Assembly: GCA_017302795.1 (NCBI GenBank)
Contig: JAFLCB010000004.1
Span: 1-64,000 of the forward strand
DNA length: 64,000 bases
DNA from: Deltaproteobacteria bacterium
Lineage (GTDB): Bacteria; Bdellovibrionota; Bdellovibrionia; Bdellovibrionales; JAMPXM01
Direction: 5' to 3'
Shown here: positions 19,242-34,262 of the stretch, piece by piece
Position numbering within the stretch: position 1 is the stretch's first letter
Layout of the letters: each line of letters starts with the position of its first letter
Notes under the pieces: model-generated
The model's input: the letters and a program-made list of their open reading frames with translations, nothing else
What the model was told of the DNA's origin: nothing
Databases searched by the model: none
Program-made: the position numbers and the translations under genes

Positions 19242-20267
19242 CTACCGTGAAATTCGGTGAGGCGAAATCGAAACAGTCCACTCGGGACCGGATCCAATAC
19301 CAAACTTCTTTGCGAAGTCTCCTTGATTGATCGCAAGGGACACGTTCAAGAGACTGTTAAAATATAAAAGTGGGCGGCCTTTTGGTACCGCTGCAAATGT
19401 GGCGCCGAACGGTAGAATTTGGTCGAACATTGGCTTTAACTTTCGGGCCGACTTAGGCGCGGACTTGGGCGGGAGACTTTTTGGGAGCTCGACTTCAACT
19501 TCTTTTTTGAAGATTTGAACTCGGAACTGAGCAGCAGGTCCAAGAAGAAGCTTAGCTTCGACCAATGACTTAGGAATGTTCGTCCAGACATTCCCGAATT
19601 GAGGATCCAAAAGCGGTATTCCGCCAAAGATCAGTGATTCTGTTTCAAGAAATTCGGGCCTCTGATAACTTAGACGCACGAGGCTTGAGGCGCTGCCCGG
19701 CGCGCCGAGATCTTCGAAACGAACCTGACCACTTGCCAGCCTTGCGCCCACATAGACATAAAGGTCGCGCCCATGAAAGGTGTAGGAATCTTCGCTCCCC
19801 TTCAAACGTTGCTTTGATTCGTCGATTTGCATGACGGCATCTATACCGGCCTGATCTGCCACCAATGTTGTAAGGCCATTGTCAGGGCCAACAAAAAAGT
19901 GACCAGACTTAGTTTTCACAACAACTGATTTTCGTTCTGAACCAACTCCGGGATCTACGACAGTCACAAACACGGTTCCTGCTGGCCAATATTTAAAGGT
20001 CTGCTGAAGCCGATAGGAGGCATCCCATATCGAGTAGTTCGGGATTTCGTGCGTCAGATCACTTACCAACAATCCGGGTGCGGCCTGGTGGGCAACGCCC
20101 TTCATAGCACTTACGGCACCGTCGCGAAGTCCGAAGTCTGTCATCAAAACGAGGGCCGGCCGACCGGCATTGGCCTGTTCTGTTTCAGTCGGCGAAGACG
20201 CGCAACCGACGAGCACCGACGAAAGAATAATTGCCGTCAGAAGCGAAACGGAAAACGAATGAGCCAT
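19242..20267 (-). CDS. SAM hydroxide adenosyltransferase (DUF62) as a lipoprotein
   Basis: This 341-residue protein begins with a lipoprotein signal whose lipobox L-V-G-C places Cys22 as the lipidated residue. The body matches the DUF62/SAM hydroxide adenosyltransferase family: VLMTDFGLRDGAVSAMKGV, VFVTVVDPGVGSERKSVVV, FFVGPDNGLTTLV and YTFHGRDLYVYVGARLASG. A C-terminal domain ends in PLLYFNSLLNVSLAINQGDF, as in family members (N-S-x-G-x-l-e-i-A). The family hydrolyses S-adenosylmethionine to adenosine and methionine. SAM is cytosolic, so a surface-anchored copy is puzzling. A linker rich in Lys/Pro/Ser (SLPPKSAPKSARKLKP) interrupts the C-terminal barrel. Confidence 0.88.
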   Translation of the reverse strand: MAHSFSVSLLTAIILSSVLVGCASSPTETEQANAGRPALVLMTDFGLRDGAVSAMKGVAHQAAPGLLVSDLTHEIPNYSIWDASYRLQQTFKYWPAGTVFVTVVDPGVGSERKSVVVKTKSGHFFVGPDNGLTTLVADQAGIDAVMQIDESKQRLKGSEDSYTFHGRDLYVYVGARLASGQVRFEDLGAPGSASSLVRLSYQRPEFLETESLIFGGIPLLDPQFGNVWTNIPKSLVEAKLLLGPAAQFRVQIFKKEVEVELPKSLPPKSAPKSARKLKPMFDQILPFGATFAAVPKGRPLLYFNSLLNVSLAINQGDFAKKFGIGSGPEWTVSISPHRISR

Positions 20268-22828: not shown

Positions 22829-23932
22829 TCAGGGCTTTTGTTTGAAGAAGCGACGAAGACTGACTGGCTCGAGCTTGCGACCAGCATAGCTTTCGAACTG
22901 GTTCATCGAATCATTGAATGACTTTTCGCATCGCTGCCACAGAACCGAGTCAAGAGCCGCGTAAGCCTGAGCCAAGGCCGCTTCTGCCGCTATTTTGTCG
23001 GTCGGATTCAAAAGAAGCCCAGACGTTGGTGCCATTCGCGTTAATCGCTCTCGCCACCGTTCGGAGTCGCACGCGAGAAAGCCCAGAATTTTAGGAGTCT
23101 TCGACGACATCATGAGGGCGCTGGTTAGATCTTCAAGCCCCGGCTTTGTTTTCGAATAGTGGTCGTAATCAATTTTTCCGTCCTCTTTGCGCCGGACCGC
23201 CGGTGAAAAATCTGGTCCACCGCCTTTTCGTGCGTGCCCGACATACATCAACATGTCGGCTTCGCTGATCCCCGTGTAGAAAACTTTTTTAGCGTTATCC
23301 GACTTCTCTTTTTGTTCTTGAGAAAATGCCTGATTGATACGGTCGCTTGTGGAATTTGAACTCGCCGTTAGCCGCAAATTGATCTTGTGTTTTTCACCGG
23401 TAGGACCGACCACCGTTTTTTCAAATAGATCCGCATCGTCTGCCGAGCGCGAAAAGCCACAAACGCGCACGTTCGATTCGCAAGCCGACATCACCCGGTC
23501 TACAAACAATTGTCGGGTGAGCGTGTCATCAACAACAAAATCATCGCTGTCATCGCCATAGCCAAAAACGTATCGAATATCGATTTCTGGCTTGGAGTAA
23601 AAGTTGGACCAAGTCGCAATGCATTTTTTCTTTTCAGCAGTGGCGCTGGCATCAGGCATCGTCAAGCCCATTTCACCTGCGGATCCAGCGTAACATTCGT
23701 AGCAGCTCCGCTGCTCGTAGCGAAGATTGTCGAGCGCATCAGTTGTGTCTTGAATGAGTCTCAAATTTCGCTCGACAATTTCTTTTTCAATTTGAACTTC
23801 GGTCTTCTTGCCTTGTGCCGGGATTTTAGATACGGCACGTGTTTGGGCTTGGCCATTTGGACCAAACCCTGCGCCCACAATAGCGAGAGCGACAGCTAGC
23901 GGAAAAGTGGAAATGAAAACGCGAGGCTTCAT
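22829..23932 (-). CDS. Exported protein with caspase/CHAT-like (clan CD) Cys-His pattern
   Basis: This 367-residue protein has a signal peptide (about 1-29). Its central region suggests a caspase-hemoglobinase fold. The hydrophobic strand DMLMYVGHARKGGGPDF presents His233, and a second strand KILGFLACDSERW presents Cys288, 55 residues later. That is the order and context seen in CHAT, gingipain and caspase peptidases (h-h-h-G-H ... h-h-h-L-x-A-C). Between them lies DGKIDYDHYSKTKPGLEDL, plausibly the substrate loop. The N-terminal third has a C-Y-E-C pair. I know no exact family. It overlaps by 4 nt (ATGA) the helical-repeat gene upstream, so the two are coupled. Confidence 0.65.
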   Translation of the reverse strand: MKPRVFISTFPLAVALAIVGAGFGPNGQAQTRAVSKIPAQGKKTEVQIEKEIVERNLRLIQDTTDALDNLRYEQRSCYECYAGSAGEMGLTMPDASATAEKKKCIATWSNFYSKPEIDIRYVFGYGDDSDDFVVDDTLTRQLFVDRVMSACESNVRVCGFSRSADDADLFEKTVVGPTGEKHKINLRLTASSNSTSDRINQAFSQEQKEKSDNAKKVFYTGISEADMLMYVGHARKGGGPDFSPAVRRKEDGKIDYDHYSKTKPGLEDLTSALMMSSKTPKILGFLACDSERWRERLTRMAPTSGLLLNPTDKIAAEAALAQAYAALDSVLWQRCEKSFNDSMNQFESYAGRKLEPVSLRRFFKQKP

Positions 23933-24882
23933 TCCGGCTTTCCTATTTCAAACTTCAAGGCTTTGGCTTCTGCTTCCTGACAAAGCTTTCTGGTTTTTTC
24001 GTTCGAATCAAGAACACAATTGATTCCATTAGTGGGCCCAGCTATCGCTTTATAAATTGCTAAAAAATCTTTTTCATCTGCAGACAAAAGCGCTAGGTAA
24101 GCGCGCTCTCGCGCCTGAAATGGACTGACCCGAATCGCAGTTTTCAAAAACTTGATGCGGTCCGAAATCGGCAAAGGCAGTGAGAGCCGGAACCAATCGA
24201 CAGCATGAATTCGAATTTCGTAAACATCGTTGGTCAGAAGCTTTTCAAGAGTTTCCGCCGAAGGCTTCTGGCCAAGCTCGGACATCGCGTCGGTCAGCGC
24301 CCCGATCACTGCAAGTCGGTCGGCCGACGGCCGGTTTGCTTCCATCAGAAATAGAAGTTCTTGATCGAAATTCGATTTACTTAAATCCCCGGAAATTGCC
24401 ATCAATCGAATGCGCATGGCACGCAAGCGTCCATCAAACGACGTTTCTATTTTTTGTTTTGCAATTGAGGCCAGCAAGATTTTGGCGTCTGCTTTCGAAA
24501 AACTCTTGTGGCGACGAAGCACTTCGATTGTACGAAGGGCCTGACCTGCTTCGAAGGAAGTTTTAGCTGGAAAGACTTTTGCCATTTCAACAACAAAGGC
24601 CTGAAGTTCTTTTTCGTTGAGAGAACGGATCAACGATGCTTTACGGCTGGCAGTCCCTTCGTCGTCATCCAAAACAATCTGAAGATCACTGAATCTGACA
24701 GTGCCACTGGCTATAGCCACCCCAGGCCACGCTAGCTCGAATACGAATGTAAATATGACGGACCAAGTGCAGACCAAGCCAACGTCCCGAAGAGCGCGGC
24801 CTACTGTTAGATATATTCTCGAAACTCGTGCTATTTTCACAGACTCCCTATCGGAAGTTCGTGTTTGAAATTGGAGTCCCAT
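23929..24882 (-). CDS. Exported alpha-helical repeat (HEAT-like) protein
   Basis: This protein is up to 317 residues long. A hydrophobic export segment (VGLVCTWSVIFTFVFELAWPGVAIAS) is followed by helix-turn-helix repeats of 30-40 residues (RRHKSFSKADAKILLASIAK, RLAVIGALTDAMSELGQ, VYEIRIHAVDWFRLSL, RERAYLALLSA), a pattern like HEAT or armadillo scaffolds. The start may be ATG 24882 or GTG 24840, the latter behind AGGGAG. The latter would free the promoter of the divergent Smr gene. The coupled caspase-like gene follows, so a scaffold/substrate-adaptor role is a reasonable guess. Confidence 0.62.
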   Translation of the reverse strand: MGLQFQTRTSDRESVKIARVSRIYLTVGRALRDVGLVCTWSVIFTFVFELAWPGVAIASGTVRFSDLQIVLDDDEGTASRKASLIRSLNEKELQAFVVEMAKVFPAKTSFEAGQALRTIEVLRRHKSFSKADAKILLASIAKQKIETSFDGRLRAMRIRLMAISGDLSKSNFDQELLFLMEANRPSADRLAVIGALTDAMSELGQKPSAETLEKLLTNDVYEIRIHAVDWFRLSLPLPISDRIKFLKTAIRVSPFQARERAYLALLSADEKDFLAIYKAIAGPTNGINCVLDSNEKTRKLCQEAEAKALKFEIGKPE

Positions 24883-30876: not shown

Positions 30877-33800
30877 TCAATCAAATATAAGCTCCGATGA
30901 AATCATTGTTAGCAAATCACAAGCTTTGGATTTCTCCGGCGCTTTCTGCGGTAAAATCATTGATGATTTACACACTGTCCTCACAGGAATAGTTTTGACC
31001 GTGACGCAATCCTGGGTGCCAATGGATTTGGTCGGTGGCTCGCACGCTGTCTGCCCTAAATTTACCCAGCCGTCCGCAAGTCTATTCTGCCAACTGCCAT
31101 GAACATCTATACTAGGCATCCAGTTAAAAAACTTCGAACTAAACTTTAGAATCGATACATGCTGTTCTTTTGAATCTGCGATCTGACCGACCAGTCGCTG
31201 CCAATCCGGGACATCGGTTTGAAAATAGTGAAGCAACAAGAAAACCATTTCCGCCGATAGCGACATCTTAATGCGAGCTTCTTGCGGGCCAGATTCAGAG
31301 CCAGATCCAGAACCGGCTTTGGCGTCGATGGGACGGAGCTGAACCATTAAATTCTTAGTTTTTGTCCGATCGAATTGCGGAAGTTCCCGTGGTAGCTCTT
31401 TGGCTTCTGCGGGCTGTTGCTTGGCTATTTGGATTTCCAACTTCGCCAAAAGTTTATTAAACTCTTGGGCTTGCCCGCTTAGATAAAGCGCGACATATAG
31501 GCCCTGTATTTGGCGCACACGATCAGAGTCCTTCATTCCGTCTGCAGTTTTCAAAAATTGAAAAAGAATACCTGAAGATCCATCTTGAGTAATAGGTGCC
31601 AAAAGCCTTCGCGCGGACTTTTGAACTTCAGAAAACTGGTCGTTTAAACCTAAGACTTCAAGAAGGTCTTCAATCCCAAATCGAAATGGATATTCGCTGA
31701 GTTCGCTTTTCGAACGCGACACATTGAGACCCTGAAGACGCGTTACGATTTCACTAAAGTCCATAACTTCAAACTGAAAGTCTACATCTGAAGTGAACTC
31801 ACTAAGAGACTGCGCTTCCCCGTCCGCAAGCCGCTTCCATTTCAGGCTGTCCTGAAGTTCTTTTAACTCCTTTTTCAGCTCGGCTTCGAAATCATTTGGA
31901 GTTCGATACGGAGTTGCTTTTCGCCGAAGAAAAGTTTGTGAGTTTTCCGCAAGAGTCCATTCGTCAGCCCGCACGAACAAAACTGGAAGTTTCGTCGGTG
32001 ACCGGCTGAGAACTAATCGCCCGATTTCATTCACAGAAAGTGCGGTAGTAAATGGGTCGGGAGTCTGAGAAGGAATGCGGCCAGCCTGGTTTCGGACGCT
32101 CAACGCTTGGCTGGATTTGGTAGCGAGCTCCTCGCTGGAATGACCGTCGATAAGTGCCGACAAAAGATTTCTTACGTCCCTTAGGCCGCCATTTGAGGGA
32201 TTCGTGGAAATTCCATCATCTAAAAGCGGCTTTCTATCCCCCACTGACAACTGATCGGCGTACAAAGCGGTAGAGAAGGGAGATGGGTTAGGATCTCTGT
32301 CCCGAGTTGATGTTGTCAGGTCATCCGGAAAGGCTACAGGATTCGCAATGGACTTCGAAATCACGAGACGTGATCGAGGGTAGAGGCTCGAGTTTTTCTC
32401 TGGCTGACTGCCAAAGAGCCGCGGAGAAAACGACCGATAAAGAAATGTCGCCGCGAGCGCACGAGGGGAAAGCACCGAGGGACTAGATTTCATTTCTAAC
32501 GGTGTCATCGAATAAATTGAAATCGCCGTTTTACTCTTGGTATTCACAAGCACGGCTTCTATATGATTTTCCCAAATCATTATCCCGAACTTCAGATCGG
32601 GATTTTCATAGCGAAGAAAGGCTGGGTAGAACATAGCCGTAAGGGCGAGCGTCCGGGTGACACAGTTTCCTTTCAAGGAAGGTCTTAAGGTTGACACCAA
32701 AGCAAACGGTTGACCATCTTGATGCTTCGGAATGTATTCGTCGACAAATGCTTTCAACATCGCCAAGGCATCTGCATCGACAACTTTTAAACCACGCTTT
32801 GCCATGTACCGTTCAAACCTCAACATAACAGCATCGCGTTTTTCAATGAAGTCCGATGTTTTTAGGCCTCGGGTCGAAAGATCGTAAATGCTCGGAGAAA
32901 TTAAAAGTCGCTCGCCGTAGCCGATCAATTCTGCATACTTCCATGCGGCCTTAAGGTTGGCCTCCCCGTACAAGATCTCTTCAGCCTTTACTCGCGCAGC
33001 ATCAAGGCTTATCGAGTCGTTCGTCGAACCAGGTAGAAGTTCCAGAACAGTTTTTGAGCTTCCAACTATTCCTGCCTGCAATCTGAGTAACGCTTCTTTC
33101 GATATATCTTCGAGATTGTTGTCTTTCGGCTGGCTGACGGACGACAGAATCGCTGCGTGACCTGCAGCACTCGCAATCGTCGCTTTTGTTACGGTTGACG
33201 ATTTAGACCATTGCCCAAGAGCCTTCATGATAATGGGACTTTTTAGTGTCAATTGACCGACGGTCTTAAAAACGATTGCTCCGCCCATAAGCCCGGCCGG
33301 ATTTAAAATATCAATAAGGCCGGCATCACGTATCGCTTTGTCGATTTTTTTCGAAAGATCAATCGCATGAGGCTTAAGCCGTTTTCGATTGGCTTCGCTA
33401 ACGCCATCATTGGTCGAAATGATGAGAAGTAGATTTGATAGTGACGCTAGTGTTTCAAGGCGATCTTCGTCCTTTGCCATGTGGCCGAGAGCTTCAGCGA
33501 GTGCTATGAGTCTGGCTCCAAGATCTTTTTCGGCCTCAAGGCGCTCGATGGCTTTGAATCCTGCAAGGGTAAAATCCGAGAATCCCGATTTTAAAATCAT
33601 TTGGACAAAACGAAGGCGCTTTCCACGGACCGAAGAAGGCGGTTCACTTTGAATATCGCTTTCAAGGAAGCCCCGCATTTGCGCAGACGAGAACTGAGTG
33701 TCTCGAGGATCTAGCCCTAGATACTCGTTGTGCCCCGTTTCTTTTGCAAACCACCATTCTCGATATTCTTTGATCGCTTGTTTTCTCTCGCCGGCGTCGA

Positions 33801-34083
33801 GCGAGGTTTTTTCCATCAGAAACCGGGAAATTCGCGGAGCTTGATCGACTTCCTTTTCAACGCTTTCCAAATAGGCAGATTGAACTAAAAAGGTTAGGCG
33901 AATCTGAGGATTCTCGAGAATTTGAAACCGCCCCCAAGGCGCGGCGGCCGTTTTCCCACCTTTGACTTCCGCATGAGCCGGCAGCGAAGCCATTGCCATC
34001 GTAACTACAATTGCCGCCCCCATTGAGCCGCAAGCCTGGGATAAACGAAAATATTTGAACACCTGGTTATTTAGGTTCTTCAT
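30877..34083 (-). CDS. Large exported protein with transglutaminase-like Cys/His core
   Basis: This protein of about 1068 residues has a signal peptide (residues 1-39, MAMASLPAHAE). The first 330 residues are helical. Around residue 470-510 the sequence PSLKGNCVTRTLALTAMFYPAFL and LKFGIMIWENHIEAVLVNT pairs Cys474 with His507. That spacing and context (a G-x-C helix, then a strand with W-x-x-H) recall transglutaminase-like cysteine proteases. A long Ser/Pro/Asp-rich segment (about 545-650) and a helical C-terminal half follow. I cannot name a family. The alternative start TTG 34101 adds six residues. Confidence 0.65.
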   Translation of the reverse strand: MKNLNNQVFKYFRLSQACGSMGAAIVVTMAMASLPAHAEVKGGKTAAAPWGRFQILENPQIRLTFLVQSAYLESVEKEVDQAPRISRFLMEKTSLDAGERKQAIKEYREWWFAKETGHNEYLGLDPRDTQFSSAQMRGFLESDIQSEPPSSVRGKRLRFVQMILKSGFSDFTLAGFKAIERLEAEKDLGARLIALAEALGHMAKDEDRLETLASLSNLLLIISTNDGVSEANRKRLKPHAIDLSKKIDKAIRDAGLIDILNPAGLMGGAIVFKTVGQLTLKSPIIMKALGQWSKSSTVTKATIASAAGHAAILSSVSQPKDNNLEDISKEALLRLQAGIVGSSKTVLELLPGSTNDSISLDAARVKAEEILYGEANLKAAWKYAELIGYGERLLISPSIYDLSTRGLKTSDFIEKRDAVMLRFERYMAKRGLKVVDADALAMLKAFVDEYIPKHQDGQPFALVSTLRPSLKGNCVTRTLALTAMFYPAFLRYENPDLKFGIMIWENHIEAVLVNTKSKTAISIYSMTPLEMKSSPSVLSPRALAATFLYRSFSPRLFGSQPEKNSSLYPRSRLVISKSIANPVAFPDDLTTSTRDRDPNPSPFSTALYADQLSVGDRKPLLDDGISTNPSNGGLRDVRNLLSALIDGHSSEELATKSSQALSVRNQAGRIPSQTPDPFTTALSVNEIGRLVLSRSPTKLPVLFVRADEWTLAENSQTFLRRKATPYRTPNDFEAELKKELKELQDSLKWKRLADGEAQSLSEFTSDVDFQFEVMDFSEIVTRLQGLNVSRSKSELSEYPFRFGIEDLLEVLGLNDQFSEVQKSARRLLAPITQDGSSGILFQFLKTADGMKDSDRVRQIQGLYVALYLSGQAQEFNKLLAKLEIQIAKQQPAEAKELPRELPQFDRTKTKNLMVQLRPIDAKAGSGSGSESGPQEARIKMSLSAEMVFLLLHYFQTDVPDWQRLVGQIADSKEQHVSILKFSSKFFNWMPSIDVHGSWQNRLADGWVNLGQTACEPPTKSIGTQDCVTVKTIPVRTVCKSSMILPQKAPEKSKACDLLTMISSELIFD

Positions 34084-34262
34084 TCCGAAGGAACGATCCA
34101 AACCCTAAGCCAAGCAGCAGCTTCGAAACACGGCTACTGGCTAACCCCTATAGCTCTGGAAATACTGAGATTTTACTTTGGAACGATAGGGATCTAAAAG
34201 ACCCGATCGTCAAATTTATGGACACCGGCCGCAAGCGCCGGCACCAACCCCGAAACGACACG

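Follow-up and report, generated by a model that had tools for sequence, protein, structure and literature searches.

An overlapping pair of genes on the reverse strand of the 64,000-nucleotide stretch of DNA analysed here (the window) probably encodes an exported two-subunit cysteine endopeptidase, a reading drawn from sequence comparison and structural models to which we assign a probability of roughly 60 %. P0001, with a predicted caspase-hemoglobinase fold, a putative His233/Cys288 dyad and two predicted disulfides, would be responsible for catalysis, and P0002, a predicted HEAT solenoid, would act as its docking or gating subunit. We propose that P0002 is made first from the same mRNA as P0001 and exported with it to the periplasm, the surface or the outside of the cell, where it would bind the protease and either bring substrate to it or control access to its active site. 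The substrates might be proteins of prey, as the preliminary description suggested alongside host proteins, of the cell itself or of another source. In some relatives the HEAT domain is fused to the protease and makes up the N-terminal half. The features of the pair are as follows:

22829 to 23932, reverse strand: P0001, predicted exported caspase-like (clan CD fold) putative cysteine endopeptidase of 367 amino acids, identified from the ORF, the model and conservation
23929 to 24882, reverse strand: P0002, predicted exported HEAT/ARM-type helical-repeat partner, with GTG at 24840 as the likelier start
23929 to 23932, reverse strand: ATGA overlap of the P0002 stop and the P0001 start
23234 to 23236, reverse strand: codon of His233, predicted catalytic histidine, in the motif YxGH[AS]RxGGGPDF after strand 227-231
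23069 to 23071, reverse strand: codon of Cys288, predicted nucleophile, in the motif GxxACxS after strand 282-286
23843 to 23932, reverse strand: predicted signal peptide of P0001 (approximately residues 1-30), with a basic start, a hydrophobic core and small residues ahead of the cut
24705 to 24840, reverse strand: predicted signal or anchor segment of P0002 if translation begins at the GTG, with a hydrophobic helix and an AIA-SG cleavage-like site

Two conserved genes with predicted signals for export

The preliminary description of this DNA had reported two ORFs joined by an ATGA overlap together with His233 and Cys288, all of which are present at the coordinates listed above; within P0001 the stretch MLMYVGHARKGGG carries His233 and KILGFLACDS carries Cys288. 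A GGA-type ribosome site lies just 5′ of the P0001 start at the overlap. For P0002, GTG at 24840 is the likelier start, since the ATG at 24882 lies approximately 19 bases from a divergent gene without a clear ribosome site and AGGGAG precedes the GTG. Homologues of P0001 occur in 29 of 60 relatives. Comparison with the nearest orthologous pair placed 131, 95 and 246 differences at codon positions 1, 2 and 3 of P0001 and 125, 102 and 206 at those of P0002 and, to judge by these counts, both genes are under purifying selection. The homologues, the third-position excess and the invariance of the two putative catalytic residues (see below) together mean that the two-ORF observation is no product of chance.

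On inspection of its sequence the N-terminus of P0001 is that of a typical signal peptide, a basic stretch followed by a hydrophobic core, and nearly all full-length members of the protease family have an N-terminal hydrophobic segment. Within the family alignment Cys151 and Cys158 are almost always retained or lost jointly, as for the most part are Cys104 and Cys335, and this paired keeping and loss suggests two disulfides (Cys104-Cys335 and Cys151-Cys158) in P0001, which would fit export. The hydrophobic N-termini and the jointly lost cysteine pairs support the earlier proposal that P0001 is exported.

P0001 is predicted to adopt a caspase-hemoglobinase fold

An AlphaFold2 model of P0001 built from 60 aligned sequences reached a pLDDT of 88.3 and a pTM of 0.85, with low confidence in the signal-peptide region (approximately residues 1-30). 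In order, its elements are a strand (116-123), a helix (136-148), two strands (169-175 and 181-190) and a long helix (204-224), followed by strand 227-231 leading to His233, helices 256-262 and 264-275, strand 282-286 leading to Cys288, helix 290-300 and strand 305-308. In caspases the loop that follows strand 3 carries the catalytic His and the loop that follows strand 4 the Cys (PMC4357240). The order of elements in the predicted model is this arrangement, His233 and Cys288 each following one of two successive core strands.

Foldseek alone gave weak matches to the model (best E-value 3.5e-3), and re-alignment of its candidates with VIA-align parted clan CD structures from GTPase-like decoys. 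Rows 1-35 were all clan CD, headed by the SAVED-CHAT structure 8tl0 (Z 10.9, 3.4 A, 185 residues) and followed by the metacaspase 7qp1 (Z 8.0), the secreted C11 peptidase 6nag (Z 8.0; range 6.8-8.0 for 6nag, 6n9j and 6mzo) and caspases at approximately Z 6-7, with unrelated small GTPases ranking below them (Z ≤5.5). As all of these Z values except that of SAVED-CHAT are near the level at which the tool advises caution, the case for clan CD rests on the identity of the rows and the conserved dyad and not on Z alone. The caspase-hemoglobinase fold put forward in the preliminary description, for which structure prediction had been named as a check, is thus the predicted fold of P0001.

The putative catalytic dyad is invariant

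His233 and Cys288 had been assigned on the basis of their clan CD order. Both are invariant in all 33 homologues found by BLAST, a set collected without any motif requirement, in which G232, R235, G237, G239 and F242 likewise never vary. In a second set of 74 sequences, P0001 and the members at 73 loci, His233 and Cys288 are again invariant (74/74), although the scan pattern for these loci (GH[SA]RxGGGP[DS]) includes the His and excludes the Cys, so that the invariance of His233 is partly built into this set and that of Cys288 is unaffected in either. G232 is also present in 74/74, and in clan CD a Gly stands before the catalytic His (PMC12445089). Caspase-like domains that lack activity are frequent in certain bacterial conflict systems (PMC7159879), and P0001 could by analogy be a non-catalytic binding protein, but the invariance of His233, Cys288 and the nearby glycines across the 74 sequences is the pattern of an active site and makes such a pseudo-enzyme very unlikely.

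The residue at position 127, just past strand 1 of P0001, is Asp in 66 of 74 sequences and Asn in 6. In the metacaspase TbMCA2 Asp95 lines S1 and favours a basic P1 residue (PMC4357240); as a weak guess by analogy, Asp127 may do the same in P0001.

An apparently uncatalogued clan-CD-type family

Searches of Pfam, NCBIfam, PADLOC and PDB sequences with single proteins and alignments returned no significant family, and neither P0001 nor P0002 has a Pfam match. Clan CD names appeared weakly, C50 in two family members (best 0.016) and C25 in one (0.091). Among 60 members there was no match to CHAT (PF12770) even at an E-value of 10 and no Pfam match to Peptidase C11 (PF03415) or C14 (PF00656), and hhalign profile comparisons were not significant for one CHAT protein (P 0.41), C11 (P 0.11) or C14 (P 0.19). 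The C11 alignment, non-significant and not counted as proof, does put His233 and Cys288 in register with the C11 His and Cys. As the profiles place the protease significantly in none of C11, C14 and CHAT, we regard it as apparently representing an uncatalogued clan-CD-type family with no Pfam or NCBIfam model, a clan placement which rests on predicted structure.

The label "caspase/CHAT-like" in the preliminary description holds in that CHAT is the nearest solved fold (8tl0, Z 10.9), while CHAT membership by sequence was rejected for want of a significant profile match, the likeness being one of fold alone and common to the rest of clan CD. It extends to the placing of the His after one core strand and of the Cys, in G/L-x-x-[AS]-C, after the next, and to the helical-repeat part with which the CHAT peptidase of the TPR-CHAT protein Csx29 also works. 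SAVED-CHAT proteins of the CalpL type and Csx29 are cytoplasmic CRISPR effectors under cyclic-nucleotide or RNA-triggered control, whereas P0001 is predicted to be exported, has no CRISPR or SAVED part and is paired with HEAT instead of TPR repeats. CHAT genes are absent from the 60 relatives and nearly so from the phylum (1 of 241 genomes).

C11 clostripain-type enzymes, common among the relatives, are exported bacterial clan CD enzymes, as P0001 is predicted to be. Many clan CD enzymes carry His-Gly, the C11 motif being His-Gly-(X)n-Ala-Cys (PMC12445089), whereas the P0001 family has His-Ala/Ser followed by Ala/Ser-Cys; on this ground and for lack of a significant profile match C11 membership was rejected. 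Metacaspases and caspases (C14), rarer among the relatives, share the core fold and dyad order (7qp1 at Z 8.0, caspase-3 at approximately Z 7) but P0001 differs from them in having a signal for export, disulfides (as predicted) and a HEAT protein as partner, and with no significant profile match or sequence relation C14 membership was likewise rejected. Caspase-like domains encoded with obligate neighbours are also known from NTP-dependent bacterial conflict systems (PMC7159879); these share with P0001 the pairing of such a domain with an obligate neighbour and differ in their NTP dependence and partners, only the HEAT partner recurring near P0001. We did not find the family described in the papers searched on Bdellovibrio caspase-like, CHAT or clan CD proteins, which does not prove it to be unpublished.

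A HEAT-repeat partner that appears obligate to the protease

In its model (pLDDT 87) P0002 is a solenoid of the HEAT/ARM kind, a row of helices following the signal region, and its Foldseek matches are mostly HEAT, ARM and alphaRep proteins with probabilities near 1 in the top rows. Some relatives of the partner match Pfam HEAT_2, above the cut-off in one case (L064). The best-conserved residues of P0002 are L215, Q256, R258, C289 and C301.

Across the 73 loci the HEAT partner lies directly upstream of and overlaps the protease gene in 29, lies downstream with an overlap in 3, is fused to it in 3 and is absent in 33 (among which the trypsin-like and aspartyl protease pairs described below are counted), with 5 undecidable at contig ends. 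The reversed order forms one well-supported clade, and the three fusions, in which domain boundaries place HEAT N-terminally and the protease C-terminally, fall at three separate positions in the tree. Comparison of coordinates in 241 genomes of the phylum, 59 with the protease and 20 with the HEAT partner, found all 20 partners beside the protease gene or in one reading frame with it. From this linkage the partner appears to be obligate to the protease, the converse not being so: roughly half of the family members lack a HEAT partner, and the protease fold does not always need one. Pairwise distances of the two proteins correlate (r 0.82; highest value among permutations 0.29), a comparison confounded by the species tree. 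No third operon gene is conserved in the loci near the pair, and no further neighbour recurs past local synteny. The joint function previously suggested from the overlap alone gains from the adjacent or fused partners, the fusions and the reversed gene order and, as the pair recurs across the phylum and sometimes as one fused protein, P0001 and P0002 almost certainly work together.

How they would do so bears on two other explanations. The HEAT protein could serve as a dedicated chaperone or inhibitor, holding the protease inactive on its way to where it acts, instead of docking substrate, and the partner gene is indeed first in the operon at most loci, never occurs without the protease and in the fusions supplies the N-terminal part, where a pro-domain would sit. 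We consider this unlikely, as related proteases in Bdellovibrio and others lack a HEAT partner entirely, one clade encodes it downstream, and a covalently fused inhibitor would have to be removed, with nothing pointing to such a step. The least probable explanation is a toxin-immunity pair, in which the protease is delivered as a toxin and the HEAT protein shields the producer; an exported, overlapping two-gene unit of patchy occurrence (59 of 241 genomes), present in several copies in some genomes, recalls such systems, but the partner is encoded upstream of the protease or fused to it, half of the family has none, neither delivery domains nor secretion-system genes recur in the neighbourhood and there is no match to defence models. 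We therefore favour the exported endopeptidase with a docking or gating HEAT subunit, whose coupling looks as strict as the one between CRISPR-linked CHAT proteases and their regulatory parts. It would add an exported branch, with a dedicated repeat-protein subunit, to the caspase-like proteases and offer a two-protein system for studying the control of an extracytoplasmic caspase-like enzyme by a helical scaffold.

Distribution and other protease pairings

Nearly all members of the protease family come from Bdellovibrionota, a phylum with many bacterial predators; the few other loci are in Verrucomicrobium and Elusimicrobia. Some genomes have several copies. No relative was found in the viral contigs searched, and thus we see no link to phage. 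Members in Bdellovibrio mostly stand without a HEAT partner; B. bacteriovorus HD100 presumably carries one family member at 366739-367662, and members in this species are open to knockout.

One branch of the family has, directly upstream and in place of the HEAT gene, a gene for a trypsin-like peptidase that starts like a lipoprotein and has its His, Asp and Ser motifs intact (L097:4771-5808, L106:4868-5860 and L117:4730-5695), and such a trypsin-like and caspase-like pair is a possible two-protease cascade. At another locus a family member that itself begins with a lipobox is overlapped at its start by the gene of a retropepsin-like aspartyl protease (L101:4358-5350). A broader reading, which we offer tentatively and think rather doubtful, makes this a new family of clan CD peptidases with its centre in Bdellovibrionota. 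Outside the cytoplasm its members would supply the catalysis in modular proteases built of two parts; the second part would usually be an obligate HEAT subunit that gates the enzyme, and in other branches a trypsin-like lipoprotein or an aspartyl protease, so as to form an extracytoplasmic proteolytic cascade.

Other exported-looking proteins

Elsewhere on the reverse strand of the window an exported-looking protein of 1074 amino acids with no Pfam match is encoded at 30877-34101, and a SAM hydroxide adenosyltransferase (SAM_HAT, E-value 2.3e-53) at 19242-20267 has a lipoprotein-type signal (VGC at approximately residue 22), an export signal that would be odd on such an enzyme. The same genome has, on another contig, a gene for a C11 clostripain-type protein that looks exported and whose domain matches in two separate pieces (G000:C5:228046-228798; loci L138 and L141). 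At locus L130 an exported-looking ORF of 400 amino acids beside a C11 gene starts with IMRRCIGMRFLL and contains the motifs ISGHHYGEWEG and FHLQGCRTA, possibly representing a further caspase-like family.
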